A stretch of DNA of 64,000 bases from the NCBI RefSeq assembly GCF_963455295.1, contig NZ_OY734020.1:3224001-3288000 (forward strand), written 5' to 3'. Positions 18,461-42,666 of the stretch are shown piece by piece (positions within the stretch are counted from its first letter, which is position 1; the number at the start of each line of letters is the position of its first letter). The notes beneath the pieces were generated by a model. The model saw nothing but the letters and a program-made list of their open reading frames with translations, was not told where the DNA came from and ran no database searches. Source of the stretch: Candidatus Thiodiazotropha sp. CDECU1 (GTDB lineage Bacteria > Pseudomonadota > Gammaproteobacteria > Chromatiales > Chromatiaceae). A program made the translations under genes and the position numbers.

Positions 18461-18486
18461 GTTGATATCCTCTGTTTAAAACTCGT

Positions 18487-21381: not shown

Positions 21382-21400
21382 TCAGATATCCTCTAAAAAC

Positions 21401-21613: not shown

Positions 21614-21669
21614 GAAATCATCCTCCGGTCGGATTCACAGTTCAGTCATGGCATCATCGATAAAATAGG

Positions 21670-22338
21670 TTACACAGGCATACTCAGATAACGTTTCTCC
21701 ATCGCTGCGAATGCGGCGCCGAAACGCCCCACCGCACGATAGAAGACAGCGGTTTTCGCCTCACTCAAATCAGCGAAAAAACGCTCCAGCCAACCAGCCA
21801 TGTGTGATTCGTAGAAGTGTGATTGCTGCTGGAAACTGACCCCCTCAGTGATCAACATCGCCATCACTTCGCACAGCGCGGCAACATGATCCTCCGGTTC
21901 GGTAACACCCTCCTGGCGCTGGAATCCCAACATGGCCAGGTCGTCCCGCAGCTTTCCCAGGGGCTTCTCCATCAGGAAGCCGGTGAGATACCAGGAGCCA
22001 TAGGGCACCAGCTCGCCGCGACCCATGCCGATGAACAGATCGTGAAACTCCACATCCACCGCTTGCGGTTTAGAGTCCGAAGCGGAGAGTCCCAACATCG
22101 ACATCGCCAATGCCAACTCATCCTTGGTTGGCTCTATGCCTGCGAAACCGGCGACCTGGTCGAGCATCGATTGATCCGGGGCCTGTCGCAACAGTTGCGC
22201 CAGCATGCCGTAGGCACCGATCCGATAGTGCTGTTCCTGGTCCAGGTCGACGCCTTGAGCCGCCTCAGCCGTTGCATCAGGCTGCTGGCTCTTTGGATAC
22301 TCATTGTCGGGTTGAACAGCTTGGTTCAAATCGGTCAT
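21670..22338 (-). CDS. TorD/DmsD-type molybdoenzyme chaperone
   Basis: The ATG at 22338 has GAGGAGAG at good spacing, so the 22 further codons upstream are not used. The 222-residue, mostly helical protein has the TorD-family pattern: an N-terminal helical region, EFHDLFIGMGRGELVPYGSWYLTGFLMEKPLGKLR around 105-140, and EDHVAALCEVM. Such chaperones bind the TAT signal of the alpha subunit and hold it for cofactor insertion before export. The first 40 residues are acidic, Gln-rich and probably disordered. It lies in the FDH operon, 56 bases before the TAT-signal gene. Confidence 0.88.
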   Translation of the reverse strand: MTDLNQAVQPDNEYPKSQQPDATAEAAQGVDLDQEQHYRIGAYGMLAQLLRQAPDQSMLDQVAGFAGIEPTKDELALAMSMLGLSASDSKPQAVDVEFHDLFIGMGRGELVPYGSWYLTGFLMEKPLGKLRDDLAMLGFQRQEGVTEPEDHVAALCEVMAMLITEGVSFQQQSHFYESHMAGWLERFFADLSEAKTAVFYRAVGRFGAAFAAMEKRYLSMPV

Positions 22339-22489
22339 CACACTCTCCTCAGCTGAATAGTGTTTGCAAGCAATGGACCAGCTCTGGTGGGAAATAAATG
22401 ACAAATTGGACTGATATCGACCAAGTCTCCGCCCTCCCCACCTGTCAAACGGTGCCGGCCTGTATCTGACAAGGGGTCAAAATGCGGCG

Positions 22490-24118
22490 CTACTGTCGAA
22501 ACCGGCCATCCAGGTCACCCCCCATGGCTTCCGAGTCCTGCACGATATCCACCACCCGGCAGGCGTCACACAGGGTCAGGCGCTTGAGTGCCCTTTCACT
22601 CTGGAACATATAGTGATCCTTGAGCTTGCTGCGCATCTTGTCGATCACGGAACGGGTTGCGAAGGGTTTACCGCAGGATGTACAGCGAAAGGGTTCCTCT
22701 TCCCGCAGGGTGCGCGTCTGGGTGCGACTCTCTGACTCGAACAACAGGCGCGGGGTAATCCAGATGGCATCCTCGGGACAGGTGCGGGTACAGAGTCCGC
22801 ACTGCAGACAGTTGGCCTCGATGAATTGCAGCTGTGGCAGACCCTCGCTGCCGCTCTGCAGCGCCTTGCCGGGACAGGCCCCGACACAGGACATACACAG
22901 GGTACAGGCCTTCTCTTCCACGTAGACCGTACCGAAGGGGGCACCCGTAGGGAGGTTGGCCATGGGTTTTGACCGCTCTGCCTGGGCATACAGATGATCG
23001 AGAGCGAGATAGATCGATTGACGTTTGCTGCCGATCCCCGAGTAGGCCGCTGCCTCGATCTCGGGCATCCCATCCCCCGCCTCCTCCACGAGTTCCGTAT
23101 GCTCTATGAGTCGAATCGATGCCTGGGGATAACCCATGGCAGTGAGGATTTCACCACTGATGCTCAACTGTTCCTGCAGAGCACCCATCACGGATGGCGG
23201 TATCCCACCGCCGTCCGCCAACAATACCTGCCTGGCGCCATAGGCCAGGGAAGTCAGCCAGACATCCATGCCGATGCTGGCCAGCTCCTCCACCATCACC
23301 GGTAAATAATGGGCGGGGATATCATCCGGCAACACTTGATCCGATGCAGCGTGAAACACCACCACCGGGGAGCTGCCCCCCTGCTCCCGATAGATGGACA
23401 GTAGCTTGCGCAGTCGCTGCAGGTTGTCTTTGACCGAGGGATAGACATAGCGAATCGCGCCGCTGGGGCAGACACTGGCGCATGCCCCCCCTCCCTGGCA
23501 GAGGTAGCTGTTCACTTCGATGGTTTCCGCCAGGCCGGTGATCGCATCTGCGGGGCAGGCATCGATACAGCGGGTGCAGGCGGTGTTACCCGAACGACCA
23601 TGGGCACAGATCGCCGGATCGTAGTCGAAATAGCGGGGCTTCTCGAAATTACCGGTCATCTGAGCCACTTCTTCGAGCACCGCTGCGAGCTGATCCTCCT
23701 CGATACTGGAGTGGTAGTAACCGGGCGGGTTCATACCCCGGCTCATCAACGGCTGCCGGGAGAGATCGAGAATCAGATCCACCGCCAGGGTCTCCCCATT
23801 GGCGCGGCCCGCTTCGCCCAGGTGTATCTTGAAGTCACCCAGATAACCCTCTAACCGCAGGGTGCGGCCACCCACCGGCACCACCGGGGCTCCCGGCTCC
23901 TCCGCACCTTCGGTCAGGACCACGATCGGACTCAGTCTGTCATTGAGCCGCGGCGCAATCTCCAGCGCCGTTTGATCACCGATTACCGCCACCCGACCCC
24001 GGGACTGATAGTTCACCAGACTGGTCGGCTCCACAGGGATTCCCTGCATGGCATGCAGTGCCTGGTCCCGGGCCCGGCGGTTGGCCATCGTATCAGGGGA
24101 TATCTTCGATTCACTCAT
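22490..24118 (-). CDS. FDH-operon multi-cluster 4Fe-4S protein
   Basis: A 542-residue cytoplasmic iron-sulfur protein. A first pair of motifs lies around residues 172-220 (ACTRCIDACPADAI, then CQGGGACASVCPSGAI), and a second pair around 405-450 (CTLCMSCVGACPGKAL, then CLQCGLCTRTCPEDAI). C-terminal CxxC pairs (CTSCGKPF, CDACR) could hold zinc or another cluster. The middle third resembles an HdrA/MvhD-type domain only loosely. Genes of this type occur next to DUF3305/DUF3306 in FDH operons, and the usual guess is electron supply or cluster delivery during maturation. It overlaps the DUF3306 gene by four bases. Confidence 0.82.
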   Translation of the reverse strand: MSESKISPDTMANRRARDQALHAMQGIPVEPTSLVNYQSRGRVAVIGDQTALEIAPRLNDRLSPIVVLTEGAEEPGAPVVPVGGRTLRLEGYLGDFKIHLGEAGRANGETLAVDLILDLSRQPLMSRGMNPPGYYHSSIEEDQLAAVLEEVAQMTGNFEKPRYFDYDPAICAHGRSGNTACTRCIDACPADAITGLAETIEVNSYLCQGGGACASVCPSGAIRYVYPSVKDNLQRLRKLLSIYREQGGSSPVVVFHAASDQVLPDDIPAHYLPVMVEELASIGMDVWLTSLAYGARQVLLADGGGIPPSVMGALQEQLSISGEILTAMGYPQASIRLIEHTELVEEAGDGMPEIEAAAYSGIGSKRQSIYLALDHLYAQAERSKPMANLPTGAPFGTVYVEEKACTLCMSCVGACPGKALQSGSEGLPQLQFIEANCLQCGLCTRTCPEDAIWITPRLLFESESRTQTRTLREEEPFRCTSCGKPFATRSVIDKMRSKLKDHYMFQSERALKRLTLCDACRVVDIVQDSEAMGGDLDGRFRQ

Positions 24119-24660
24119 GTTTCAACCTCATCACTTGGATCCTCTTGCTGCCCGGTCAGGGGAGGTGCCGGCTCATCACCGGCCTCATCGTCCGCAGCTA
24201 CCGCCCGGCTGGGCATAGGGTCGTCGCCATCCCTATCCAATGCCTGGGCCTGGGCCAGCTCATCCTCTTCGGCCTGTTTTTTCAGTGCTTCCTGCTCAAG
24301 CCTGTGGCGCAGATCCGCGGTCATCACATTGCCCAACTTCTCAAAACTGGTGAAATCCTCCGCGTAGTCATCCAGACCGTCGCAGACATTGAAGGCGGCA
24401 CTGTGGAAAAGCTTGTCCAAGGCCAGTTGGCGCAGCTGCTCGGATACCTTGGGGGAGAGAAAACCGCTGTAGTCGGAGTCTTCATTCAGACTCTCCAGTG
24501 GCGGCATATCCGCGTCGCTGGGCTGCTGTTCCTCGTCGACCGGTTCTTCCTGTTCCACCACAGGTTGCTGGGCGGCCTGTTTTTTCTCGGACCAGCGACG
24601 GTAGAAACCCTCATCGCTCTGAACGGTTGTCTCCGGCGAATCCTCAGGCTTCATGATCAT
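24115..24660 (-). CDS. DUF3306 protein of the FDH operon
   Basis: A 181-residue, acidic, low-complexity protein. The DUF3306 signature is visible: RRWSEKKQAA near residue 21, PPLESLNEDSDYSGFLSPKV near 53-72, and LRQLALDKLFHS followed by DGLDDYAEDF. The remainder is Glu/Gln/Asp-rich and likely disordered. The function is unknown; it is restricted to FDH operons of this type. The start could be the ATG at 24660 or 24654; both overlap the end of the DUF3305 gene. Confidence 0.82.
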   Translation of the reverse strand: MIMKPEDSPETTVQSDEGFYRRWSEKKQAAQQPVVEQEEPVDEEQQPSDADMPPLESLNEDSDYSGFLSPKVSEQLRQLALDKLFHSAAFNVCDGLDDYAEDFTSFEKLGNVMTADLRHRLEQEALKKQAEEDELAQAQALDRDGDDPMPSRAVAADDEAGDEPAPPLTGQQEDPSDEVET

Positions 24661-25174
24661 CCGGTCCCGGAGTCGACGATTTCCAGTCGGTGCGCTTGCG
24701 CTTGGTGCGCTTCTGCGGCACGTAGTGATTCAGCACGAAGGCCTCTGTCCACCGATAGAGCTCGGCCGGCAGGGGCACGGTATAGACCGCGTCATCCCCT
24801 TCCAGGTAGGCATGGGCCTCGTCGTAACTGAGACTGACCAGGAAGGGCTCCGGCTTGCCCTGGTCATCCAGATTCGCCACCACATAACAGTGGGGCTGAA
24901 TCGAGAGCAGATTGTAGTAGTAGCTTTCACACTCATCTTCATGCAGGCGCAGGGTGAAACCGGAATAGAGATAGCGATTCACCGAACCCTCCTGGTGAAT
25001 CAGGCTCGGTGCGGCCCTGTCGCCCCGCTCCTCGACCAGGTCGCTGATGATGCCAACCGCCTCCCAGTTGTTCTCAAGCCATTGAGAATCGCTGGGTGAT
25101 TGCTGCATGATCACAGAAACATTGAATTTCGAAGGGTTATCAGCCTTCGCCTGGTCGTTATTGGTCGCTGTCAT
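24644..25174 (-). CDS. DUF3305 protein of the FDH operon
   Basis: A 176-residue protein with the DUF3305 core: FNVSVIMQQ near residue 18, WLENNWEAVGI near 32, and LHEDECESYYYNLLSIQPHCYVV near 77-99. It is the first gene of the operon, 35 bases after a candidate sigma-54 promoter. The biochemical role is unknown. Its constant co-occurrence with DUF3306 and the iron-sulfur protein suggests a maturation or regulatory function for FDH. Confidence 0.82.
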   Translation of the reverse strand: MTATNNDQAKADNPSKFNVSVIMQQSPSDSQWLENNWEAVGIISDLVEERGDRAAPSLIHQEGSVNRYLYSGFTLRLHEDECESYYYNLLSIQPHCYVVANLDDQGKPEPFLVSLSYDEAHAYLEGDDAVYTVPLPAELYRWTEAFVLNHYVPQKRTKRKRTDWKSSTPGPDDHEA

Positions 25175-25208: not shown

Positions 25209-25224
25209 CGCAAGTTGCATACCA
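25209..25224 (-). promoter_or_regulatory. Candidate sigma-54 promoter of the FDH operon
   Basis: Read on the minus strand, TGGTAT-N5-TTGCG keeps the essential GG-N10-GC spacing of the -24/-12 elements, with TGG and TTGC intact. It ends 35 bases before the first ATG. The -24 part matches the consensus TGGCAC in four of six bases. Confidence 0.6.
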
Positions 25225-25591: not shown

Positions 25592-25607
25592 GGGTACGGT
25601 ATTTGCG
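25592..25607 (+). promoter_or_regulatory. Candidate sigma-54 promoter of moaA-fdhD
   Basis: GGGTAC-N5-TTGCG has the GG-N10-GC spacing and an intact TTGC. Transcription would begin near 25618, which places the ribosome binding site GAGG (25632) and the GTG at 25642 in the leader. This argues against the in-frame TTG at 25603, which would lie inside the promoter. Confidence 0.5.
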
Positions 25608-25641
25608 TATCGAACTGGATAACCAGCCTGTGAGGTCGCGT

Positions 25642-26661
25642 GTGAATAGAGAGAGCCCGGAAAATCAGACCCAATCCCCCCTCGTGGATCGCTTCGATCG
25701 ACAGGTCAACTATCTGCGCATCTCGGTCACCGACCGCTGCGACCTGCGTTGTGTCTACTGCATGTCGGAAGATATGCAGTTCGTACCCCGATCCCAGTTA
25801 TTGACCCTGGAAGAGCTCTACCGGGTCGGCAAATCCTTCGTCGATATGGGGGTGAGAAAAATACGCATCACCGGGGGTGAGCCTTTGACCCGGCGCGGCA
25901 TCATGCAGCTGTTCGAGGCCCTCGGTGGGTTGGACGGATTGGAAGACTTCACCCTGACCACCAACGGCACCCTGCTGGGACGCTATGCCAAGGCGTTGCA
26001 AAAGGCCGGGGTGACCCGGGTCAATATCAGCCTCGATTCCCTGCAGCAGGAGCGCTTCAAGAGGATCACCAGGATCGGCGATGTGAAGCGTACCCTGGCC
26101 GGTATCGATGCCGCCCTCGAGGCCGGCTTCAAACGGGTCAAGATCAACTCGGTGATCATGAAACACCGCAACCATGACGAAATCCCCGCGCTGGTCGCAT
26201 TTGCCGAACAACGGGGCATGGATATCAGCTTTATCGAGGAGATGCCCCTGGGGGAGACCGGGGATCACGATCGGGGGGAGCTCTACTACTCCAGTCAAGA
26301 GGTACTACATGATCTGCAGCCCCATTACGACCTGATCGCCACCACCGAATCAACCGGCGGGCCTGCCCGCTATTACCGTATCAACGACAGTGACACCCGG
26401 GTCGGTTTCATCTCACCCCACAGCCACAACTTCTGTGATCACTGCAACCGTGTACGCCTCACCGCCGAAGGGCGTCTGTTGCTCTGCCTCGGCCAGGAGC
26501 ACTCGGTGGATCTGCGCCGCGTGGTGCGGGCCAACCCGCTGGATGATGAACCGTTACGCCAGGCGATCATCGACTCCATGGCGATCAAACCCAAGGGACA
26601 CGAGTTTGATCTAAACGCCAAACCGGTGCTGTTCCGCCATATGAACGTAACCGGCGGATAG
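25642..26661 (+). CDS. moaA: GTP 3',8-cyclase MoaA
   Basis: A radical SAM enzyme for the first step of molybdenum-cofactor synthesis, converting GTP to 3',8-cyclo-GTP. The SAM cluster motif CDLRCVYC lies about 36 residues from my start, ITGGEPL follows, the C-terminal cluster Cys are in CDHCNRVRLTAEGRLLLC, and the required C-terminal Gly-Gly is present. I prefer the GTG at 25642 because GAGG precedes it by six bases and the longer TTG start would fall in the candidate promoter; the product is then 339 residues. It leads an operon with fdhD and a regulator, divergent from FDH. Confidence 0.93.
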   Translation: MNRESPENQTQSPLVDRFDRQVNYLRISVTDRCDLRCVYCMSEDMQFVPRSQLLTLEELYRVGKSFVDMGVRKIRITGGEPLTRRGIMQLFEALGGLDGLEDFTLTTNGTLLGRYAKALQKAGVTRVNISLDSLQQERFKRITRIGDVKRTLAGIDAALEAGFKRVKINSVIMKHRNHDEIPALVAFAEQRGMDISFIEEMPLGETGDHDRGELYYSSQEVLHDLQPHYDLIATTESTGGPARYYRINDSDTRVGFISPHSHNFCDHCNRVRLTAEGRLLLCLGQEHSVDLRRVVRANPLDDEPLRQAIIDSMAIKPKGHEFDLNAKPVLFRHMNVTGG

Positions 26662-26670
26662 GCCATACCC

Positions 26671-27555
26671 ATGGATACCCTCTACCATCAAAAACGACCC
26701 CTCATGAGCGATGAGGGACTGGCTGCCGCGGTAGAGGCTGTTGCGGTTGATGAGTATGGCGATATCAGAAACGGCCATGTGGCCGCGGAACGCGCGCTCA
26801 CCCTCTATCTGGACAAGCAGGAGCTGGTGACCCTGATGACCCTGGGCACCCGCCCGGAGATGTTGGTACTGGGATGGCTGCGCAATCAACGACTGGTGGA
26901 GGATATCGAGCAGATCAAGGCGATACAGGTCGATTGGGAGACCGATTCCGTCGCCATCACCACCTATCAGGGGGTGCAGGGATTGAAGGAGAAGATGGCA
27001 CGCAAGACGGTCACTACCGGTTGCGGTCAGGGGACGGTGTTCGGCGACCTGATGGATGATCTGGATAAGATCGAGCTGCCACGGAGAAGCATACGCCAAT
27101 CCGAGATATACCGACTCCTGCACACCCTGAACGAACACAATCAAGTCTACCAACGGGCGGGGGCGGTGCACGGATGTGCCCTCTGCAGTGAGGAGCAGAT
27201 CCATCTCTTCATCGAGGATGTGGGCCGGCATAACGCGGTCGATGCCATCGCCGGTCACATGTGGCTCGAGGGGACCGACGGCAGCGACAAGCTCTTCTAT
27301 ACCACCGGTCGGCTCACCTCGGAGATGGTGATCAAGGTCGCCCAGATGGGGATCCCGATCCTGCTCTCCCGCTCAGGCATAACACAGATGGGATTGGAAC
27401 TGGCGAAAAAGGTCGGCGTCACCCTGATCGCCCGAGCCAAGGGCAGACACTTCCTGGTCTACAACGGGGCGGAACAGATAAGTTTCGATGCAGTGCCGGA
27501 GGTTCGCCCCCGCAGCACCGGGTCACGACATGCCAGTCAGAGCAAAAGCCGATAA
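26671..27555 (+). CDS. fdhD: Formate dehydrogenase sulfurtransferase FdhD
   Basis: A 294-residue FdhD-family protein. It contains TTGCGQG near 111, GAVHGCALC (the CxxC thought to carry the transferred sulfur) near 165-172, FIEDVGRHNAVDAIAG near 182-197 and TTGRLTSEMVIK near 211-222. FdhD moves sulfur from the cysteine desulfurase IscS to the molybdenum/tungsten cofactor of formate dehydrogenase before insertion, a step needed for activity. It starts ten bases after moaA, with the regulator gene 12 bases downstream, so cofactor synthesis and FDH maturation are co-expressed. Confidence 0.94.
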   Translation: MDTLYHQKRPLMSDEGLAAAVEAVAVDEYGDIRNGHVAAERALTLYLDKQELVTLMTLGTRPEMLVLGWLRNQRLVEDIEQIKAIQVDWETDSVAITTYQGVQGLKEKMARKTVTTGCGQGTVFGDLMDDLDKIELPRRSIRQSEIYRLLHTLNEHNQVYQRAGAVHGCALCSEEQIHLFIEDVGRHNAVDAIAGHMWLEGTDGSDKLFYTTGRLTSEMVIKVAQMGIPILLSRSGITQMGLELAKKVGVTLIARAKGRHFLVYNGAEQISFDAVPEVRPRSTGSRHASQSKSR

Positions 27556-27567
27556 GGGGGATAGGTT

Positions 27568-28482
27568 ATGGTAGCAGTGATGACCCAGGATCAACATGTC
27601 TTCATGAACGTCAAACAGGTGGCGGAGTATCTTCATCTGAATGAGAAGAAGATCTATTCCCTGGTCAACGAAGAGCGTATCCCCGCCACCAAGATCACCG
27701 GCAAATGGTTGTTCCCGAGAGAGCTGGTGGATCGCTGGATGCTCGACTCCGCCCACGGCGGCCTGATGACCAACAGGCTGGTGATAGCCGGCAGTGACGA
27801 TCCCCTGCTCTATCGCCTGATCATGACCTTTGCCGAGGAGACCGGCTCCCATGCCCTGATCAGTTACTCCCCCACGGGCACCCGCCTTGGTCTGGAACTG
27901 CTGCAGGCCAACCGCATCGACGCCTGCGGGATCCACTGGGGACCGAATCAGGAGAGCCATACACGCCATCCGGCGCTGCTGCGTCAATATCCTCAGTTTC
28001 GCCATTGGGTGCTGATACGTTTGTTTCGCCGTGAACAGGGATTGATGGTGAAGCGCAAGATCGAACAACAGGGGCTGCAGCCGGAACACCTCTTCGACCA
28101 GGGATATCGTTGGACCATGCGCCAGAGCGGTGCCGGTGCACAACGTTTTCTGATGGAGGTGCTCAGCGATTACGGCACCAGCACGGAGAGGTTGAATTGC
28201 GTCACCACCGCCCTGTCGGAACGGGAGGCGGCCGCCAGCATCGCCATGGATCATGCGGATGTGGCCCCGGGAGCACGGGCCGCCGCCAATGAGTATGGAC
28301 TGGGTTTTATTCCCTTCGGCTGGGAGTCCTTCGACCTGACCCTGCCCCGCAGCATCTGGTTTCGGCGCCTGTTCCAGGATCTCATCGGACGCCTGCGTTC
28401 AGCCGAATGCACGGTGATGGCCAAACAACTGACCGGTTACGACCTGCGAGAAGCGGGAGAGCTGGTATGGGGGGACGAGTAA
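27568..28482 (+). CDS. Excisionase-type HTH / PBP-like domain regulator
   Basis: A 304-residue protein. Residues about 10-58 are an excisionase-like winged HTH (MNVKQVAEYLHLNEKKIYSLVN... GKWLFPRELVDRWM), predicted to bind DNA. Residues about 70-295 resemble the periplasmic-binding-protein-like domain (PF12727 type), including SYSPTGTRLGLELLQANRIDACGIH and TTALSEREAAASIAMDHADVAPG. Such domains bind small anions or molybdopterin-related ligands and occur in regulators near molybdenum genes. Located after moaA and fdhD, a role in sensing molybdate, tungstate or cofactor is a reasonable inference, but no ligand is known. A weak GGGGGAT-type ribosome site precedes the ATG. Confidence 0.8.
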   Translation: MVAVMTQDQHVFMNVKQVAEYLHLNEKKIYSLVNEERIPATKITGKWLFPRELVDRWMLDSAHGGLMTNRLVIAGSDDPLLYRLIMTFAEETGSHALISYSPTGTRLGLELLQANRIDACGIHWGPNQESHTRHPALLRQYPQFRHWVLIRLFRREQGLMVKRKIEQQGLQPEHLFDQGYRWTMRQSGAGAQRFLMEVLSDYGTSTERLNCVTTALSEREAAASIAMDHADVAPGARAAANEYGLGFIPFGWESFDLTLPRSIWFRRLFQDLIGRLRSAECTVMAKQLTGYDLREAGELVWGDE

Positions 28483-34102: not shown

Positions 34103-36223
34103 TCAGGCTCTCCTCTTACTTTGACTGAATGACGACTCCGCTGCCTGCGTCGATTGTAACTGTTCCATCAGTGCCGACTCCTCTTCCACCAAATCCGGTT
34201 CCTGAAGCAGCCAGACGCTGAACAGAGATCCCTCACCCTGACCCGAACTGACGGTGATATCCCCGCCATACTTCTTTATCAATCCGTAGCTGACCGACAG
34301 CCCCAGACCGGTACCCTCACCCACACGTTTGCTGGTGTGGAAAGGATTGAATATCAGATCTATCTGCTCCTCTTCGATGCCGACACCATTGTCCTCAATC
34401 TTGATCACCACACCCTTCTCATCCCAGTCTTCTGTGCCAAGGGATATGATTCCCGCGCGCTTATCCAATGCATGCGCGGCATTCACGAACAGATTGACCA
34501 GGACCTGCTGTAACTCATGGGGGTTGACCTTGATCGGCCGTGTCGCCTTCAGGTCCAGGCGTATCTCAAACTGTTTCTGTTTCCGCAGATAACGTACCAG
34601 CGCCAAGGTGTGTTGTATCACCTCGTTGACATCGATCACCGACAGGGCTTCGGTAATCTGATCGGGACGGGCATATTGCAATAGATTGTTGATGATATCC
34701 TTGATGCGAAAGATCTGCTCGATGATCAGGTCGATCTCACCCTTTACCGGTGCCGCGCTATCCCCCAGCTCTTCCACCAGCAGGTCCAGATTCCCCAGCA
34801 TGACCGCCGTGGGGTTGTTGATTTCATGGGCAACCCCCGCGGTCAGTTCACCCAATGCCGCAAGCTTTTCCGCAGCGATCAATTGGGCCCGTGTTTCACG
34901 CAGGATTTGGATGGTGGTCAACAGTTTCTCATTCTTCAGCTTCAGTTCCGCAGTGCGTTCATCCACCTTCTCTTCCAACTGGTCGGCCCACTGCTGCACC
35001 TGCAGATTGCGCTCCTGCAGCAGGTCGAGCAGGAGGTCGAACTCGTTGGCCAGGACACCGATCTCATCCATGGATGAGATCTTGCCGATGCGTTTGGTAT
35101 AACCCTCACGGGTAGCGCGAACCACCGCCATCATCATCTCCAGGGGTTTGAAGATCGACTTGGCGCCACTGATGGATAGAATCGATGAAAACAGCATCAG
35201 TGCCAGAAACAGCAGGATCAGAACACCCAGTGCCTGCCACAGGGCGTTGCGCGAGGGGGACTCCAGGAAACCGGCGTAGAGCATGCCCACCCGTTCACCA
35301 TTCACATCGATGATCGGTTGATAGGCGGATATATACCAATCGTTGACCACAAAGGCCCGGTCTATCCATTTCTCACCATGATCCAACACCTGAGTACGCA
35401 CCTCATCGGAGACCCGGGTACCCAGGGCCCGCTGGTTGGGGCTTCGGGGCACGTTGGTTGTGATCCTCACATCGTTGAGGAACACGGTCACCGTGCCGAT
35501 GCTCCCCTTGGGCAGACTGCCCGGACCGTACACCAGGTCGCGTATGGTATCGACGAACTTGAAATTGGCATTCAACAACACCCCGCCATCCAGCACGGCG
35601 ACCACCTGTCCGCGGGAGTTTTTAACCGGATAGAGGGCACGAATCATCATGCCGCGATCCTCCACACGCTGCTGGGTGGGTCTTGCCCTGGGCGTATCCA
35701 GGAGCGAGAGCTCGATCTGCTTGGCCAGACCGGGAGACTGTTCATCCAGTGCCTCGGCGCTGAAGATCTCTATCTCCACCCGGGGGTTGCCCTGCAACGC
35801 CGCCAATAGGGAGGCTGATGGATGAGTGCGTTTTTCAGCTGCACCATAGGGCAGGAACATATGCCTACCCTGGACCCCAAGCAGATGCAGATAACTGAAA
35901 CCGGCTGCCCTCTGCAACTCTTCCAACTGCTGATTCACTACCTGGCCGCTCCTCGACTCGAGAGCAGTGTAGAAGGCATGGGATTCCGCCAGACGGCCCA
36001 GGGTATTCAGATAGTCCTCCTGCAGGCGGTAAAAATTGTCTTCCGCCACAGAAAGATCGGTGTTGACCTTGATGAACAGCTGCTCGTAACTGAACTGGGA
36101 TCCCCAGTAGATGGCCAGCCCCAGGGCGATAGGCATGATCAGGAGAATAGGAAACAGTACCAGGACCAGCAGCTTGTAACGCAAGCTGCTGCGTATTGCA
36201 TCGATGATCCTGAATAGCGACAT
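34103..36223 (-). CDS. Cache-domain sensor histidine kinase
   Basis: A 706-residue membrane kinase. A first membrane segment (residues about 17-40) and a second (about 330-352) flank a roughly 290-residue periplasmic domain of Cache type with GQVVAVLDGGVLLNANFKFVD and GERVGMLYAGFLE. A HAMP domain (about 353-405), a coiled coil, a HisKA domain with phosphoacceptor His in GVAHEINNPTAV (about residue 466) and a HATPase domain (NPHELQQVLVNLFVNAAHAL, DNGVGI, GTGLGLSVSYGL) follow. It is encoded after an NtrC-type regulator, its likely partner. The ligand is unknown; Cache domains often bind carboxylates or other small molecules. The ATG at 36223 is preferred over a TTG three bases upstream. Confidence 0.9.
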   Translation of the reverse strand: MSLFRIIDAIRSSLRYKLLVLVLFPILLIMPIALGLAIYWGSQFSYEQLFIKVNTDLSVAEDNFYRLQEDYLNTLGRLAESHAFYTALESRSGQVVNQQLEELQRAAGFSYLHLLGVQGRHMFLPYGAAEKRTHPSASLLAALQGNPRVEIEIFSAEALDEQSPGLAKQIELSLLDTPRARPTQQRVEDRGMMIRALYPVKNSRGQVVAVLDGGVLLNANFKFVDTIRDLVYGPGSLPKGSIGTVTVFLNDVRITTNVPRSPNQRALGTRVSDEVRTQVLDHGEKWIDRAFVVNDWYISAYQPIIDVNGERVGMLYAGFLESPSRNALWQALGVLILLFLALMLFSSILSISGAKSIFKPLEMMMAVVRATREGYTKRIGKISSMDEIGVLANEFDLLLDLLQERNLQVQQWADQLEEKVDERTAELKLKNEKLLTTIQILRETRAQLIAAEKLAALGELTAGVAHEINNPTAVMLGNLDLLVEELGDSAAPVKGEIDLIIEQIFRIKDIINNLLQYARPDQITEALSVIDVNEVIQHTLALVRYLRKQKQFEIRLDLKATRPIKVNPHELQQVLVNLFVNAAHALDKRAGIISLGTEDWDEKGVVIKIEDNGVGIEEEQIDLIFNPFHTSKRVGEGTGLGLSVSYGLIKKYGGDITVSSGQGEGSLFSVWLLQEPDLVEEESALMEQLQSTQAAESSFSQSKRRA

Positions 36224-36234
36224 CAACGTATTTC

Positions 36235-36254
36235 AGGGCCTGTTTACAGGCCCT
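36235..36254. repeat. Solo MITE-end palindrome between regulator and kinase genes
   Basis: AGGGCCTGT-TT-ACAGGCCCT has perfect 9-bp arms. It equals the two ends of the 2633-2903 element joined with the interior removed. The regulator's stop codon TAG (36255-36253) lies at its edge. Confidence 0.7.
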
Positions 36255-37665
36255 AGTTGACGCCCCAGGCCTGGGTCTTTCGCTCCAAAGTCTTGCGCGA
36301 TATACCAAGCACCCGGGCCGCCGCGGATTTGTTGCCGCCTTCAAGATCCAGAACCTTTAGGATATGTTGTTTCTCGATCGCCTCGAGCAGCATGGTCTTG
36401 CTCGGATCAAAGGCTGTTGCCTGACTCCCCACCGCCTCGGAACCCAGCAAGCAGAGACTGGGAGACTTGTTGAGCAACAGGCATCGTTCGATCACATTCT
36501 TCAGTTCACGTACATTGCCCGGCCAGTCATAGTCGAGCAATCTGACCAGTTCGCTCTCCCCCAGGTGTGGCGGCGCTATACCCAGTTCCGCCGACAGGAT
36601 CTCGACGAAGTGTTCCACCAACAGGGGAATATCCTCTTTACGTTCACGCAATGCCGGTATGCGTAGAGAGAGGACGTTCAGACGATAGTAGAGATCTTCA
36701 CGGAATTTACCCTGGCGCACTTCCTGTTCAAGGTCACGATTACTGGCGGCGATGATCCGCACATCCACCGGCACCTCACGGTTGGAACCCACCGGACGGA
36801 TGGTACGCTCCTCCAGGGCACGCAGCAGATGTGCCTGCATGCTCAGCGGCATCTCTCCGATCTCATCCAGAAACAGGGTACCGCCGCTGGCGTAGGTGAA
36901 GAGGCCGTCCCTGGAAAGATGGGCACCCGTAAAGGCACCTTTGACATGACCGAAGAGTTCGCTCTCCAGCAGTTCCGCGGTCATGGCGCCGCAATTGACC
37001 GGCACAAAGCTCCCCGATCTACCACTCATCTCATGTATCGCCCGGGCCGCCAGCTCCTTACCGGTACCCGATTCACCTTCGACAAGCACCGTGGAGGGCA
37101 TGGGCGCGACCCTTTTGATGACACCGCACAGGGACTGCATCTGCTGACACTTTCCCACCATCCCGGCGCTGTCGTAGATCTGCTCCACCTGGCGTTTCAG
37201 GACGAAGTTTTCGCGCTGCATCTTTTGCCGCACAAGATAGCGTTCCACAGCCGCTATCATCTGCTCCATACGAAAGGGCTTGAGGATAAAGTCCTCGGCA
37301 CCGGCACGCAGGGCGGCTATCGCCGTCTCCATATCCGCATGGGCAGTCATGAAGATCACCCCGGTGGCGCCCCCCTGGGCCCGCAACTCCTTCACCCATT
37401 CGACGCCGCCGGTCTGTCCAGGGAGCCGTATATCGGTAATGATGAGATCAAAATGGCAGTGTCGTCTGAGCTCTTCGGCGGTTGCCACATCTTCCGCCGT
37501 TTCCACCAGTCCAAAGTATTTGCGCAATCCCTTCTGTAGAAAACTGCGTATTCCCGGCTCATCATCCACGATGAGCACGGATGCCATACGCACGGCGGAT
37601 CCCTCCTTGCCGGTGGTCTGTTTACGCTCGATACTCTCCGCTAGTTCTTCTGCGTTTGTATTCAT
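36253..37665 (-). CDS. NtrC-family sigma-54 response regulator
   Basis: A 470-residue protein with an N-terminal extension of about 27 residues, then a receiver domain with phosphoacceptor Asp78 (TDIRLPG), Thr near 107 and Lys near 129, an AAA+ domain with GESGTGKE (197-204) and the sigma-54-contact motif GAFTGA (243-248), and a C-terminal Fis-type HTH (KSAAARVLGISRKTLERK). It should activate sigma-54 promoters on phosphorylation by the adjacent kinase. It is transcribed away from the tup operon, which has a near-perfect sigma-54 promoter, so that operon is the most likely target. The last codons abut a MITE-end palindrome. Confidence 0.92.
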   Translation of the reverse strand: MNTNAEELAESIERKQTTGKEGSAVRMASVLIVDDEPGIRSFLQKGLRKYFGLVETAEDVATAEELRRHCHFDLIITDIRLPGQTGGVEWVKELRAQGGATGVIFMTAHADMETAIAALRAGAEDFILKPFRMEQMIAAVERYLVRQKMQRENFVLKRQVEQIYDSAGMVGKCQQMQSLCGVIKRVAPMPSTVLVEGESGTGKELAARAIHEMSGRSGSFVPVNCGAMTAELLESELFGHVKGAFTGAHLSRDGLFTYASGGTLFLDEIGEMPLSMQAHLLRALEERTIRPVGSNREVPVDVRIIAASNRDLEQEVRQGKFREDLYYRLNVLSLRIPALRERKEDIPLLVEHFVEILSAELGIAPPHLGESELVRLLDYDWPGNVRELKNVIERCLLLNKSPSLCLLGSEAVGSQATAFDPSKTMLLEAIEKQHILKVLDLEGGNKSAAARVLGISRKTLERKTQAWGVN

Positions 37666-37763
37666 TGTATTGTTCCAGTCTTCATGCTGCTCAATACCTG
37701 AAATATGTACTGCGAGATCAGGTCAATTATGGGTCAAAATGACTAAACCTAGTGCCGCCGTTT

Positions 37764-37780
37764 TGCGACCATTTGTCGCA
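37764..37780. promoter_or_regulatory. Palindromic candidate activator site upstream of tupA
   Basis: TGCGAC-N5-GTCGCA is a perfect inverted repeat 149 bases before the -24 element of the tup promoter, the usual range for NtrC-type enhancers. It contains ACCATTTGTC (37768-37777), which recurs upstream of the FDH operon at 25346-25355. Confidence 0.6.
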
Positions 37781-37928
37781 CAATAGACGGCTCTCCTCCT
37801 TCTTTAGGAATTCCCACTGGCTTTTGAACGCCAATTACGTCTCTTTATTCCCGATAACATTCACATAGTAGACAAAAGAAATCCACATACTACTGCATTT
37901 GGCCATTGTGACGGGCCATGACTTATTA

Positions 37929-37944
37929 TGGCACCTCTTTTGCA
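37929..37944 (+). promoter_or_regulatory. Sigma-54 promoter of the tup-mob-moeA operon
   Basis: TGGCAC-N5-TTGCA matches the -24/-12 consensus completely, with correct GG-N10-GC spacing. It ends 42 bases before the tupA start codon. A sigma-54 activator gene is divergent on the other side of the same intergenic region. Confidence 0.88.
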
Positions 37945-37986
37945 GACGATAGATACGATAAAACAACAAACTGAGGCAATTACCCT

Positions 37987-38847
37987 ATGTTTAAGCGTCT
38001 TTTTACCCATCTGGTTCGCATAGTTTGCATTAGTATTTTGCTAACTACTGGGTACAGTTATGCGGAGAGTGTTCAAAAACAGACCATTCGCTTGGCAACA
38101 ACAACCAGTACCGACAACTCGGGTCTGCTCGCCGAAATTCTACCCGCATTCACCGCAGCGACCGGCTATCCGATCCACGTGATCGCAGTCGGCACGGGCA
38201 AGGCATTGCGTATGGGAAGAGATGGCGATGTGGATGTGGTGCTGGTCCATGCCCGCGCGGCAGAGGATACATTTGTCCATGAGGGCCATGGTGTAAAGCG
38301 CTATGGAGTGATGTATAACGACTTTATCCTGGTAGGACCTGCGAATGATCCGGCCGGTATTGCCAAAACAGAGAATGTCATCAGCGCACTGCAGAGCATC
38401 GCCGCACATGAGGCCAGTTTCATCTCCCGTGGAGACGATTCGGGTACGCATAAAAAAGAGCTTGGACTTTGGAAAAAAAGCGCTATCCAACCGGCCGGCA
38501 AATGGTATCTCGAAGTGGGCCAGGGGATGGGTAAGGTATTGCAGATCGCCTCGGAAATGGATGCCTACACCCTGACCGACAGGGGCACGTGGCTGGCCTA
38601 TCAGGCCAAGTCGCCGCTGAAAATCGGTTTTCAGGGCGACCCGCTGCTGTTCAATCCCTATGGCATCATCGCGGTCAATCCCCAGCGCTACCCCGATATC
38701 AATCTGGCTGGGGCCAATGCCTTGATCAAATGGCTGATATCACCCGACGGTCAGGAGCGAATCGGCAACTTTCGCATCGGTGAGAATCAACTCTTCACCC
38801 CATCCGCCGATGCCGGAGCGTTTGCCTCATTCGATCGACCCTATTGA
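37987..38847 (+). CDS. tupA: Tungstate ABC transporter substrate-binding protein TupA
   Basis: A 286-residue periplasmic binding protein with a signal peptide (cleavage near SYA, about residue 26). The TupA-type ligand motif RLATTTSTDNSGLL follows, then VGTGKAL, VDVVLVHARAAED and SRGDDSGTHKKE. These are the Tup anion-binding loops; TTTST is characteristic of TupA as opposed to ModA. It should capture tungstate (possibly also molybdate) with high affinity. It is the first gene after the sigma-54 promoter, and its stop overlaps the start of tupB (TGATG). Confidence 0.93.
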   Translation: MFKRLFTHLVRIVCISILLTTGYSYAESVQKQTIRLATTTSTDNSGLLAEILPAFTAATGYPIHVIAVGTGKALRMGRDGDVDVVLVHARAAEDTFVHEGHGVKRYGVMYNDFILVGPANDPAGIAKTENVISALQSIAAHEASFISRGDDSGTHKKELGLWKKSAIQPAGKWYLEVGQGMGKVLQIASEMDAYTLTDRGTWLAYQAKSPLKIGFQGDPLLFNPYGIIAVNPQRYPDINLAGANALIKWLISPDGQERIGNFRIGENQLFTPSADAGAFASFDRPY

Positions 38848-39548
38848 TGGAATCACTCGGCGACACCACCTTAGCGGCGTTAAACCTCCTGGTCAGTGGT
38901 AACCGGGAGTTGTGGGAGATCATCGCGATTTCGTTTCGCGTCTCCGGCGTCGCCATACTGGTTGCCACACCACCGGCTCTGCTGGTGGCGTTCCTCCTGA
39001 CCTATAAGCGCTTTCCCGGGCGTCGCCTGCTGATATCGGTCAACTCCACATTCCTCTCTGTCCCAGCCGTGGTGGTGGGCCTGACCTTCTTCATTCTGCT
39101 CTCCAGGCAGGGGCCATTGGGTGAGTGGAAACTGCTGTTCACCCAAACCGCCATGGTATTGGGGCAGATAGCACTCGCCTTCCCGATACTGGTGGCGATG
39201 GGGCATTCGGCGCTGCAGGCCTCAGACGTGCGCGCCTGGGAGACCGCCCGTACCCTCGGCGCCAATCCGGCACGGGCCCTGTTGACCATCATGCGAGAGG
39301 CACGCTTCGGACTCATGGCGGCACTGCTGGCAGCTTTCGGCCGCATCATTGCCGAAGTCGGCGCATCGATGATGCTCGGAGGCAACATCCTGCACTACAC
39401 CCGCAACATACCCACTGCCATCGCCCTGGAATCGAGCAAGGGTGAGTTTGCCCAAGGCATCGCCCTGGGCCTGGTGCTATTGACCCTCGCCTTCTCACTC
39501 AATACCTTGCTGCAACATATCCAGGGTAAGGGGCATCCTGCCACATGA
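38847..39548 (+). CDS. tupB: Tungstate ABC transporter permease TupB
   Basis: A 233-residue inner-membrane permease with about five to six hydrophobic segments. The cytoplasmic coupling region ETARTLGANPARALLTIMREARFGL is the EAA-like loop that contacts the ATPase. I chose the ATG at 38847, which overlaps the tupA stop by one base; a TTG one codon earlier is less likely. Length and order match the TupABC systems. It overlaps tupC by four bases. Confidence 0.92.
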   Translation: MESLGDTTLAALNLLVSGNRELWEIIAISFRVSGVAILVATPPALLVAFLLTYKRFPGRRLLISVNSTFLSVPAVVVGLTFFILLSRQGPLGEWKLLFTQTAMVLGQIALAFPILVAMGHSALQASDVRAWETARTLGANPARALLTIMREARFGLMAALLAAFGRIIAEVGASMMLGGNILHYTRNIPTAIALESSKGEFAQGIALGLVLLTLAFSLNTLLQHIQGKGHPAT

Positions 39549-40267
39549 GCGATTCGGTCATTCTCAATGTTTCCACGATGCACAAACGCTTTGGCAGGAG
39601 AGAGGTGCTCGACGGTATCGAACTGACCCTGCAAGCGGGAGAGTGCACCCTGTTGAGCGGTGCTAACGGTGCCGGCAAGACAACCCTGCTGCGCATCCTT
39701 GCCGGGCTGGAAAGGCCGGACACCAGCCAGATTACCATTGCATCTGACTCACCCAGATCCTGGCGCCGATGCAAGGGTGATCTGCATAAACAGATTCTCT
39801 ATCTGCATCAGCAACCCTATATGTTCGACGGCTCGGTCAGATACAATCTTGGTTATGCCCTTACCACCGGTTTGGATAAACCTTTACGCAATCGTATGAT
39901 CGATGCAGCCATGGACTGGGCGGAACTGCACCACCTGCACGACACACCCGCCAAGTCACTCTCCGGGGGCGAACGACAACGGGTCTCCCTGGCAAGGGCA
40001 TGGTTGAGAAATCCCCGAATCCTATTGCTGGACGAACCGACTGCGAACCTGGATCAGGAGGCGAGAGAGCGTACCCTGGATCTGCTTGAATCCTTCAAAA
40101 AACAGGGTATTGCCCTGTTACTCGCGAGCCATGATCCACTCCACTTCTCTGCAATGATTGACCGCCACCTGCATCTATATGAGGGTCGTTTGGTGAAGAT
40201 TGAGGAGAGTAAGCTGATGTCGATTCCAACAAACCAGACAGATAGCAACCTGAGGAGCACGGCATGA
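39545..40267 (+). CDS. tupC: Tungstate ABC transporter ATP-binding protein TupC
   Basis: A 240-residue ABC ATPase. It has Walker A GANGAGKTT near 40, a Q-loop in HQQPYMFDG, the signature LSGGERQRVSLARA near 140, Walker B ILLLDEPTANLD and a switch His in LASHDPLHF. It energises tungstate import through TupB. No extra C-terminal regulatory (TOBE) domain is present. It is translationally coupled to tupB upstream and mobA downstream by ATGA overlaps. Confidence 0.92.
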   Translation: MSDSVILNVSTMHKRFGRREVLDGIELTLQAGECTLLSGANGAGKTTLLRILAGLERPDTSQITIASDSPRSWRRCKGDLHKQILYLHQQPYMFDGSVRYNLGYALTTGLDKPLRNRMIDAAMDWAELHHLHDTPAKSLSGGERQRVSLARAWLRNPRILLLDEPTANLDQEARERTLDLLESFKKQGIALLLASHDPLHFSAMIDRHLHLYEGRLVKIEESKLMSIPTNQTDSNLRSTA

Positions 40268-40857
40268 GCGGTTATCCAGCGGTCACCGCGGTCATTCTCG
40301 CCGGTGGGCGTGGTCGACGCATGGGGGGTGAGGACAAAGGCCTGATAGAGCTGAACGGCAAACCGCTGGTGCAACATGTCGCTACAGCCATCGCACCTCA
40401 GGTCGATGCGATTCTGATCAATGCCAATCGCAACCAGGATCGATATAAGCTGCTCGGTTATCCGGTATTTACCGATTCACTGCTCAATTATCAGGGGCCT
40501 CTGGCCGGTTTTATCGCCGCCATGCAGCTGATCGAGACCGAGGATATGCTCACCCTCCCCTGTGACGGCCCCCTGGTCCCACCCGACCTGGTCGAGCGCC
40601 TGCGCAAGGCACGTCAAGCAGCAGATGCGGAGATCGCGGTGGCCCATGACGGTAAACGTCTGCAACCGGTCTACGCATTGATCCCCAAGCGATTGGCCGA
40701 CAGTCTGCAGCGCTATCTGGACGGGGGCGACCGTAAGATCGACCTCTGGTACGAGCAGCATCGGGTCGCCCATGCCGACCTTTCCGATATCCCCCGCACC
40801 TTCATCAATATCAATACCCTGCAGGAGCGGGACAACCTCCAGGGGAGCGTAGCATGA
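40264..40857 (+). CDS. mobA: Molybdenum cofactor guanylyltransferase MobA
   Basis: A 197-residue nucleotidyltransferase with the MobA signature LAGGRGRRMGGEDKGL near 12-27, a conserved PLAGFIAAMQ and LPCDGPLVPPDL (metal-binding Asp). It joins GMP to the Mo- or W-molybdopterin, giving the bis-MGD form used by DMSO-reductase-family enzymes such as the FDH encoded upstream. It overlaps tupC and mobB by four bases each, so it is part of one operon. Confidence 0.93.
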   Translation: MSGYPAVTAVILAGGRGRRMGGEDKGLIELNGKPLVQHVATAIAPQVDAILINANRNQDRYKLLGYPVFTDSLLNYQGPLAGFIAAMQLIETEDMLTLPCDGPLVPPDLVERLRKARQAADAEIAVAHDGKRLQPVYALIPKRLADSLQRYLDGGDRKIDLWYEQHRVAHADLSDIPRTFININTLQERDNLQGSVA

Positions 40858-41435
40858 TCGACTATCCTGTCCCGTTATTGGGTTTCAGTGCCTTCAGCGG
40901 CACCGGTAAGACCACCCTGTTGACCGGGCTGATACCGATCCTGAAACAGCAGGACCTGCGTATCGCGGTGGTGAAACACGCCAGCCACCTGTTTGAGATT
41001 GATCATCCCAGCAAGGACAGTTACGAGCTGCGTACGGCGGGGGCCAGCCAGATGTTGGTAAGCGCCCGCGGGCGCATGGCCTTGATCACTGAATCCGATA
41101 CCAGACTCCCGGAGCCCGGCCTGGCACAGATGCTCGACTATCTCGACACAAACAACCTGGATCTGGTGCTGGTGGAAGGGTTCAAGAACGAGGCGATCTA
41201 TAAAATAGAGCTCTACCGCCCTATCCTGGGCAAACCCCTTTTGTGTCATACTGACCCCTACATCATCGCGCTCGCCACCGATGAGGCAATCCCCGGTGTC
41301 CCTCATCACCTGCCGATACTGAATCTAAACGATCCGCAGGAAATAGCCGGGTTCATACGTGAATACATGCATCGATATGGAGAGAACGGATTAAATGACC
41401 GACCAAGCCAGCGGCTCCAGCGTCAGTTGTGCTGA
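40854..41435 (+). CDS. mobB: Molybdopterin-guanine dinucleotide adapter MobB
   Basis: A 193-residue P-loop protein with GFSAFSGTGKTTLLTGLIP near 9-27 and HASHLFEIDHPSKDSYELRTAGA, both typical of MobB. It binds GTP and assists MobA or delivery of the cofactor. The gene overlaps mobA by four bases and runs 41 bases into moeA in another frame, which is unusually long. The C-terminal residues beyond about 180 (GLNDRPSQRLQRQLC) are therefore encoded within the moeA 5' end. Confidence 0.9.
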   Translation: MIDYPVPLLGFSAFSGTGKTTLLTGLIPILKQQDLRIAVVKHASHLFEIDHPSKDSYELRTAGASQMLVSARGRMALITESDTRLPEPGLAQMLDYLDTNNLDLVLVEGFKNEAIYKIELYRPILGKPLLCHTDPYIIALATDEAIPGVPHHLPILNLNDPQEIAGFIREYMHRYGENGLNDRPSQRLQRQLC

Positions 41436-42666
41436 CCCGGAGGCACCGTCAACCCTCACCGTCGCCGCGGCCCGGGAGGCGATCCTCGCAAACATCACCC
41501 CCATTGAGACGAATTTAAGGCTGCCACTGCGGGATGCCCTGAACGCTGTCCTGGCGCAGGATATCGTCTCGCCCATTGATGTTCCCGGTCATACCAACTC
41601 GGCCATGGATGGTTATGCCATGGCAGGCAGCGATCTTCCGCAACAGGCCTATCGGGACTTCAACCTGATAGGTACCGCAGTCGCAGGCGCCCCGTTTGAC
41701 CAATCCTGTGGTGAAGGTGAGTGCATTCGCATCATGACTGGCGCCCCCATGCCTGCGGGTACCGATACCGTTGTGATGCAGGAACAGACCACCCTCGTCA
41801 ATGAGTCACTGGTGCGTATCTCTCAGGGCCAGCACCCGGGACAGAATGTCCGTCTGGCGGGCGAGGACATCGCACAAGGAAGCGTGGTGCTCAAACCCGG
41901 CAGGCGTTTGACCCCCGCGGATCTGGGTATCCTCGCCTCCCTCGGTTTTGCAGAAGTCACAATACGCAGACGCCCCCGTGTGGCCTTCTTTTCCACCGGC
42001 GATGAACTGCGTTCCATCGGTGAGCCCCTCGCGGCAGGAGAGGTCTACGACAGCAACCGCTACTCCCTGCATGGCATGTTGCAGAAGGCTGATGTGGAGC
42101 TACTCGACCTGGGGGTGGTAGGTGACGACCCCGACGCCCTGCGACAGGCTTTCGACAGAGCCGCCGAAGCAGCGGACATGGTGGTCACATCCGGGGGCGT
42201 ATCGGTGGGTGAAGCCGACTACACCAAGACGATCCTGCAACAACTTGGGGATATGCAGTTCTGGAAGATCGCCATGAAGCCGGGAAGACCCCTGGCGTTC
42301 GGCAAACTGGGTGACAGCAACTTCTTCGGTCTGCCTGGCAATCCTGTGGCGGTGATGGTCACCTTCTACCAGTTTGTGCTGCCCGCACTCCACTATCTCG
42401 CCACCGGAACACCCTATACTCCATTTACCCTACAAGCCTTGAGTGGGCAAAACATCCGTAAGAAAGCAGGCAGATACGAATTCGTTCGCGGACTCATGCA
42501 GCGTCTTGAGGACGGCTCATACCAAGTCGATACAGTCGGCCGTCAGGGCTCGGGCATCCTCACCTCCATGAGTCGAGGCAACTGTTTTATTCTACTGCCG
42601 GAGGATTGTGACGGGATTGAATGCGGCGATACGGTGATCGTCCAGCCTTTCGAAACCCTGGCATAA
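41395..42666 (+). CDS. moeA: Molybdopterin molybdenumtransferase MoeA
   Basis: A 423-residue MoeA. It has DVPGHTNSAMDGYAM near 61-75, RIMTGAPMPAGTDTVVMQEQT near 109-129, the active-site DSNRYSL near 220, and TSGGVSVGEADYTK and FFGLPGNPVAVMVTF, all conserved. It inserts molybdate or tungstate into adenylylated molybdopterin, the step following MoaB. With TupABC in the same operon the metal delivered may be tungsten. The ATG at 41395 lies inside mobB; no later start with a ribosome binding site is evident. Confidence 0.94.
   Translation: MTDQASGSSVSCADPEAPSTLTVAAAREAILANITPIETNLRLPLRDALNAVLAQDIVSPIDVPGHTNSAMDGYAMAGSDLPQQAYRDFNLIGTAVAGAPFDQSCGEGECIRIMTGAPMPAGTDTVVMQEQTTLVNESLVRISQGQHPGQNVRLAGEDIAQGSVVLKPGRRLTPADLGILASLGFAEVTIRRRPRVAFFSTGDELRSIGEPLAAGEVYDSNRYSLHGMLQKADVELLDLGVVGDDPDALRQAFDRAAEAADMVVTSGGVSVGEADYTKTILQQLGDMQFWKIAMKPGRPLAFGKLGDSNFFGLPGNPVAVMVTFYQFVLPALHYLATGTPYTPFTLQALSGQNIRKKAGRYEFVRGLMQRLEDGSYQVDTVGRQGSGILTSMSRGNCFILLPEDCDGIECGDTVIVQPFETLA

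Follow-up and report, generated by a model that had tools for sequence, protein, structure and literature searches.

A putative formate-responsive two-component sigma-54 regulon at the tup-mob-moe locus of Candidatus Thiodiazotropha and related Gammaproteobacteria

Which signal calls for tungstate import and completion of the molybdopterin cofactor, and on which side of the membrane is it read? The usual view is that intracellular metal governs tungsten uptake. The question is raised by a locus of Candidatus Thiodiazotropha sp. CDECU1 (GCF_963455295.1, contig NZ_OY734020.1, positions 3,224,001-3,288,000, forward strand; this stretch of 64,000 nucleotides is hereafter the window), in which a tupABC-mobA-mobB-moeA operon diverges from genes for an NtrC-type response regulator and a sensor histidine kinase. 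Comparison across genomes indicates that this regulator and sigma-54 very probably control the operon, with regulator binding and sigma-54 dependence both predicted, and that the pair probably belongs to a formate-responsive regulon in which formate dehydrogenase and the supply of tungsten and molybdopterin are coupled.

The divergent locus and its promoter elements

The features of the locus are collected in Table 1. The regulator combines a receiver (residues D34, D35, D78, T107 and K129), an AAA+ sigma-54 activation domain with an exact GAFTGA motif and a Fis-type helix-turn-helix, the build of an NtrC-type protein, and scores under the curated NCBIfam cut-offs of AtoC, NtrC and ZraR. Some orthologues carry GSFTGA, GAFSGA or GAYTGA variants, and one (L109) has no such motif. 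Pfam reports on the regulator neither an oxyanion-binding effector domain, as TaoR- or ModE-type proteins would have, nor the GAF domain of FhlA, in place of which it has the receiver. The Cache domain of the kinase lies between hydrophobic segments and is periplasmic, as judged by eye, the periplasmic part covering residues 40-334 or thereabouts; it matches PF17202 (sCache_3_3, E 1.5e-30) and PF17201 (Cache_3-Cache_2, E 3.4e-20). A sequence-only reading of this DNA had described the divergent neighbours as a GAFTGA-type activator and a Cache-domain membrane kinase, and the Pfam domains and the exact motif bear this out.

Table 1. Features of the locus and its surroundings. Coordinates are positions in the window, except in the last row, where they refer to the loci named.
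Feature	Position	Strand	Basis and remarks
fdh3 operon, likely second target	14795..25174	-	Pfam and NCBIfam
Weak -24/-12 element TGGTATGCAACTTGCG ahead of fdh3 operon	25209..25224	-	GG-N10-GC intact; 2 mismatches to TGGCAYN5TTGCW
Two degenerate binding-site-like sequences, 33 base pairs apart, between fdh3 and moaA	25300..25349	none	Site scores 5.5 and 5.0
moaA, fdhD and HTH_17 + PBP_like regulator, divergent from fdh3	25603..28482	+	Pfam/NCBIfam
Sensor histidine kinase	34103..36226	-	Pfam sCache_3_3, HisKA, HATPase_c
NtrC-family response regulator	36253..37665	-	Pfam Response_reg, Sigma54_activat, HTH_8
Second, less perfect candidate binding site TGGGTCAAAATGACTAA	37730..37746	none	Site-matrix score 18.0
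Perfect palindromic upstream candidate binding site TGCGACCATTTGTCGCA	37764..37780	none	Fits family consensus TGnGACATTTTGTCnCA
Sigma-54 -24/-12 promoter element TGGCACCTCTTTTGCA	37929..37944	+	GG-N10-GC spacing; sequence match
tupA, periplasmic oxyanion-binding protein, TupA-like	37987..38847	+	PBP_like_2; TupA the sole NCBIfam match, under cut-off
tupB, permease	38844..39548	+	Listed start TTG; ATG at 38847 overlaps tupA stop
tupC, ATPase	39545..40267	+	ABC_tran; named from context, far under TupC cut-off
mobA, guanylyltransferase	40264..40857	+	TIGR02665 above cut-off
mobB	40854..41435	+	TIGR00176 above cut-off
moeA, molybdopterin molybdotransferase	41395..42666	+	NF007960 above cut-off
Regulator orthologues in kinase-less genomes	L240 5750-7084; L249 1486-2808; L175 7957-9282; L176 1146-2153		Receiver altered or lost, motif pairs kept

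The six operon genes stand in the order tupA-tupB-tupC-mobA-mobB-moeA. The three transporter proteins score under the curated NCBIfam cut-offs for tungstate (TupA 242 of 400 bits, TupB 189 of 320, TupC 111 of 400); the TupB model is only the second match of the tupB product, and the best matches of the tupC product are other transporters. Because of these scores and the TupC matches, tungstate specificity is put forward with reserve: by gene set and order, and with scores below the curated level, the genes would encode a transporter working like TupABC, its metal probably being tungstate.

The full-consensus sigma-54 promoter and, upstream of it, the perfect palindrome TGCGAC-N5-GTCGCA that had been proposed for this operon are both present. 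Nowhere else in the window is TGGCAYN5TTGCW matched with GG/GC preserved and fewer than two mismatches; the exact form of the promoter element, TGGCACN5TTGCA, occurs six times in the 4.46-Mb genome, this copy included, compared with once for the reversed control, and the palindrome has a single exact copy genome-wide. A second candidate site, itself among those used to train the site matrix described below, lies 34 base pairs (bp) upstream of the palindrome. In a genome of the same genus (G362), the second site is identical and the palindrome has one change, which adds little on its own since the whole alignment is 86% identical. The CDECU1 genome encodes RpoN (one match), and the one ModE model searched, TIGR00637, matched nothing in it. 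At 37915-37932, overlapping the -24 part of the tupA promoter, is a terminator-like hairpin, a single find where shuffles give an expectation of 0.2.

Regulator and motif pair ahead of tupA

With the regulator as query, a search of genome contigs gave 80 loci. Among the 12 relatives at the top of the ranking, nine (L011-L019, from Thiothrix, Photobacterium, Shewanella, Enterovibrio, Sedimenticola, Vibrio and Aeromonas) have a regulator-kinase pair diverging from tupABC-mobA-mobB-moeA, and the remaining three, Thiocystis (L020), Agrobacterium (L021) and Rhizobium (L022), with regulators 52%, 49% and 48% identical, have the pair but no tup beside it. Outside L011-L019, the other 71 loci show no TupA match within the sequence stretch fetched for each. 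The TGGCAYN5TTGCW element, a relaxed form drawn up after these loci had been inspected, stands ahead of tupA in 9/9 tup-bearing relatives, with TGnGACATTTTGTCnCA-type sites upstream of each. Since the window and L011-L019 supplied the sequences for the hand-built site matrix, these 10 loci are training data.

For the held-out loci, we scored a motif pair where a site score of 9 was reached and a -24/-12 element with no more than one mismatch followed downstream at a distance of 40-260 bp, thresholds chosen after part of the data had been viewed. TupA was found in 95 of 369 gammaproteobacterial genomes, the window's included, and upstream sequence was obtained for 93 of the 94 others (95 loci; G026 was left out). 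Second tupA copies in G131, G247 and G323 were excluded from the test, and G311 and G045 were removed before the count for too little sequence, the latter showing an exact -24/-12 element at its contig edge.

Where the regulator adjoins tupA, the motif pair is present in 10 of 11 held-out loci; in G220 and G312 adjacency was judged from incomplete regulator sequence close to contig edges, and in G253 from identical sites at two contig ends. Where it does not, the pair was found in 1/47 and 0/35 loci of two sets, 82 loci together, of which 31, with tupB or tupC ahead of tupA, were set aside as uninformative. This leaves 1 in 51 informative loci, and further ones among them may hold unrecognised operon genes upstream of tupA. 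Base shuffles of the regulator-adjacent regions, preserving base composition only, yielded the pair in 0 of 2200. Two loci run counter to this pattern: G073, the sole miss among the regulator-adjacent loci, has sites and no good -24/-12 element, and G266 (L136), the exception among the non-adjacent loci, has the pair and no regulator orthologue at the threshold given below.

The sequence-only reading was to be abandoned if promoter and palindrome were not conserved in relatives. They are conserved, in nine of the 12 top relatives and 10 of the 11 held-out loci, and cross-genome comparison thus lends strong support to control of the tup operon by the divergent regulator through palindrome and sigma-54 promoter. 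The parts, their conservation and the linkage between regulator and motif pair are direct observations. G266 itself is a small genome from the window's own family.

Formate dehydrogenase genes and the reach of the regulon

Regulator orthologues were called from 519 bits upward; across a gap in the scores, paralogues reach 493 bits at most. Such orthologues occur in 26 of the 369 gammaproteobacterial genomes, in 21 families. All 26 genomes encode TupA, compared with 69 of the other 343, and 23 of the 26 encode the formate dehydrogenase FDH3, compared with 24 of 343. The genome searches scored up to 4-9 candidates per genome, and some orthologues may be missed; the Fisher tests on these counts take no account of kinship, and their tables place as negatives G220 and G312, which lie outside the 26 (G220 is treated as regulator-positive at fdh3).

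The window has an fdh3 operon of its own, encoding DUF3305 and DUF3306 proteins, an Fe-S protein, a TorD-like chaperone, FdhA, the FDH3 beta and gamma subunits and a CCG/4Fe-4S protein. Its identity as FDH3 follows from the beta subunit (NF038355, 342 bits at a cut-off of 240) and the gamma subunit (TIGR01583, above cut-off); the alpha subunit, at 470 bits, stays under the TIGR01591 cut-off of 666. Ahead of fdh3 genes, the motif pair is present in 20 of 27 regulator-positive loci, the window not being included, compared with 0 of 12 regulator-negative loci. Its position varies, and it precedes the DUF3305 gene, the Fe-S protein gene or the TorD-like/FdhA genes. Shewanella frigidimarina combines the divergent operons (L013) with a motif pair at fdh3 (L183).

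Several choices define these counts. L015 was not counted as positive, since its pair is the tup promoter. Loci too short for the comparison were left out (positive: L193, L196, L197, L199, L202; negative: L211, L212, L220, L222), and the FDH3 genomes G223, G338, G339, G345, G366 and G377 are not included. The DUF3305 gene was unrecognised in L213-L217, retained as negatives, and in L189 and L192, retained as positives.

Elsewhere the regulator accompanies other genes of the same set. It faces mobA, with a motif pair, in L239 and L240, and lies inside an fdh3-moaA-fdhD island in L241 and L248. Its wider partners are FDH3 and molybdopterin cofactor genes, with or without tup. At the position equivalent to the fdh3-moaA interval of the window, L016, L180 and L181 have stronger sites than the window does, and the gap between fdh3 and moaA/fdhD holds sigma-54-like elements on both strands, with at most two mismatches, in L181 (Thiothrix), L016, L175 and L180.

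Several observations weigh against so wide a regulon. The fdh3 promoter of the window is weak in both its sites and its -24/-12 element, and the congener G362 fails the motif-pair test there; for these two reasons, fdh3 control in the window's species is a suggestion drawn from relatives. Seven of the 27 regulator-positive fdh3 loci have no pair at fdh3, the regulator genomes G060 and G297 (both incomplete) lack FDH3, and in L242 and L249 the regulator faces a mobA gene that no motif pair precedes. Among alphaproteobacterial relatives, the upstream sequence fetched for the fds genes (L236, L237) has no motif pair, and a pair stands instead before a gene of the major facilitator superfamily (MFS; L021 9416-9520, L022 9412-9518), on the opposite side of which, in L021, are genes for an NAD-type formate dehydrogenase.

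We also looked for a larger regulon in the window genome and rejected it: the relaxed site pattern occurs at 9 places (18 rows, both strands), the reversed control having 23, and a -24/-12 element at one mismatch or fewer is absent from every flank examined (L228-L235); further targets are for these reasons not claimed. Close to the fdh3 operon lies a gene for a MOT1-type molybdate transporter (12662-13786, MFS_MOT1), and at 61334-63820 the window encodes an XrtA/PEP-CTERM system-associated ATPase-like protein, under the curated cut-off.

The kinase, its signal and the proposed regulon

The sensor model found no kinase in six regulator genomes (G026, G067, G074, G208, G259, G317), nor in G312. 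Six of the regulators in these seven genomes are readable through the receiver, that of G208 lying outside the fetched stretch, and five of the six are altered: the phosphorylated Asp is lost in G259 and G067, an acidic-pocket residue and the conserved Thr are changed in G074 and G312, and one acidic residue is conservatively replaced in G317. The receiver of G026 is intact despite the absence of the kinase. Kinase-linked regulators retain D34, D35, D78 and K129 wherever the alignment covers them, and motif pairs are retained at one promoter at least in 7/7 kinase-less genomes. Joint loss of kinase and change of receiver with retention of the motifs is what would be expected if the kinase partners the regulator and the DNA sites are its output, and we infer that the two are linked by phosphotransfer.

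As to the signal, an sCache_3_3 receptor domain whose formate-binding residues are known has been reported to bind formate (PMC12415202), and R142, T145 and T158 of the receptor PacF affect formate binding according to PMC12501870. The window kinase has R254, T257 and T270 at the same +3 and +16 spacing, and these residues align gap-free to a chemoreceptor chain (PDB 8py1_A). The triad is kept in 32 of 33 kinase loci, the window's included (31 of 32 genes, L110 and L112 being one gene; the exception is L111, in G323), some of which carry insertions ahead of the second Thr. Two points count against reading it as a signature of formate: it occurs in 3/3 other sCache_3_3 proteins read (L250, L253, L257), and kinases of genomes without FDH3 have it (L102, L109). 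Because of these, the triad marks the sCache_3_3 family rather than formate specifically. Also against the formate account, FDH3 is missing from the kinase genomes G157 and G307, in which the kinase adjoins MFS or ABC transporter genes. Formate nevertheless suits the targets and is a reported ligand of the sensor's class, which makes it the somewhat favoured candidate for what the kinase senses.

A different carboxylate or one-carbon compound (lactate, oxalate, bicarbonate) could be the ligand, with only an indirect link to formate. The alphaproteobacterial motif pair before an MFS gene is in keeping with this, as the best NCBIfam matches of the L021 protein, under cut-off, are lactate and oxalate/formate carriers, and so is the Thiocystis regulator paralogue, which adjoins dabB-dabA with two binding sites. 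Yet the enzyme that recurs beside the system is FDH3 or an NAD-type formate dehydrogenase, and Pfam shows no Cache domain in the Thiocystis kinase, which is for that reason uninformative on the window sensor's ligand; we regard this alternative as unlikely, with an appreciable residual weight. The two Thiocystis sites (L020 9630-9678) lie 32 bp apart, and the dab genes are those of inorganic carbon uptake.

Less probable still is a kinase that senses extracellular molybdate or tungstate, or the lack of it, and has the regulator induce uptake and cofactor genes accordingly. The operon does code for uptake, and TupA is encoded in 26/26 regulator genomes and 21/21 kinase genomes, but several regulator genomes have the regulator by mobA or fdh3 and not by tup, the sensor class has reported formate and other carboxylate ligands, and no Mo/W-binding Cache domain was met in the literature consulted, which was available in part. 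Tungstate was thus ranked low as the signal, and the extracellular sensing of the Mo/W anion advanced by the sequence-only reading finds no support; in its place, a formate-type two-component sigma-54 regulon looks like the better account of the signal.

Intracellular Mo/W sensing may exist as well, since the moaA-fdhD operon of the same island includes a candidate cytoplasmic regulator with HTH_17 and PBP_like domains (27568-28482), possibly TaoR-like. That the palindrome is the site of this protein rather than of the NtrC-type regulator is very improbable: its gene is nearby in many motif-positive genomes, but at E <= 1e-20 it was not found in the motif-positive G073, G297, G119, G315, G266 and the Shewanella and two Vibrio relatives (G003, G007, G008), nor in the incomplete genome G220, and the sites lie upstream of -24/-12 elements, often paired, in an enhancer-like manner. 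We therefore rejected it as the palindrome's reader. In G026, G067, G208 and G373, whose tup genes lie away from the regulator, a second protein of this kind is encoded within about 2 kb of tupA, and tup may be under other controls in such genomes. Equally improbable is a sigma-70 promoter driving tupA beside an incidental -24/-12 match, as the one sigma-70-like match (37900-37929, 9/12) is about what chance provides (mean 0.8) and the -24/-12 element is kept before tupA in all the tup-bearing relatives.

In the formate-responsive regulon proposed here, the kinase would detect a small periplasmic carboxylate, most likely formate, and then phosphorylate the divergently encoded regulator, which would bind one or two 17-bp dyads (TGnGACATTTTGTCnCA) and contact RpoN-polymerase at -24/-12 promoters through looping. 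It would switch on tupABC-mobA-mobB-moeA, and with it import of the oxyanion (probably tungstate) and completion of the pterin cofactor. Many genomes of the family would have the fdh3 genes switched on as well, and some of them moaA-fdhD. Formate, as the demand, would thereby drive enzyme and metal-cofactor supply jointly. A broader form of the proposal, which we hold to be evenly poised, is a widespread regulon in which periplasmic formate-sensing kinase, NtrC-type activator and sigma-54 would co-induce formate dehydrogenase, molybdopterin genes and the tungstate importer, and in which, in lineages that lost the kinase, the receiver would decay, the promoters be kept and the activator become phosphorylation-independent.

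A close functional parallel is the FhlA regulon of Escherichia coli, in which a formate-responsive sigma-54 activator induces formate enzymes. The sensor of FhlA is cytoplasmic and of GAF type, and a kinase is absent there, whereas the system studied here has a receiver domain and a membrane kinase and would control metal-uptake and pterin genes. ModE, a cytoplasmic oxyanion-binding repressor, shares the regulation of Mo/W uptake, and the regulator studied here is not of that type. The TaoR/TupR regulators of tungsten enzymes and tup genes, reportedly described by Rajeev et al. in 2019, likewise control tupABC together with tungstoenzyme genes, as proposed here; they are one-component and cytoplasmic, unlike our receiver-type sigma-54 activator, and the HTH_17 + PBP_like protein shares their general build. 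The work of Rajeev et al. is cited in PMC10102598. NtrC-, ZraR- and AtoC-type systems have the same receiver-AAA+-Fis architecture and dyads upstream of -24/-12 elements, with another operon set and sensor. The formate chemoreceptors PacF, McpF and Atu0526 have a related Cache_3 domain with a conserved Arg, to which PacF adds the two Thr at matching spacing (PMC12501870, PMC8698456); they drive chemotaxis, whereas the sensor here forms part of a histidine kinase.

Sigma-54 control of formate dehydrogenases is itself not new, because promoter matrices already predict such targets: formate dehydrogenases make up 32% of 176 predicted sigma-54-regulated members of one COG in the accessible part of PMC12316311. 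That part names no activator, sensor or tungsten/cofactor partner for them, and the terms tungst, tupA and fdh are absent from its main text. Limited literature searches, with most subscription journals outside them, met no link of tungstate or tup to a sigma-54 two-component system, and a prior description is possible. VC1522-VC1523 of Vibrio cholerae is presumably the same locus as the one studied here. The region between these two genes is listed as a binding place of AphA in PMC6855506.

If the proposal is true, metal import and cofactor building are tied to the extracellular substrate of the enzyme they serve, read by a kinase. It would supply a concrete sensor, site and target list for formate dehydrogenase control in the 26 gammaproteobacterial genomes and 21 families, plus a Shewanella relative, and the lineages that lost the kinase would offer a natural series for studying how phosphorylation may cease to be required by a response regulator.

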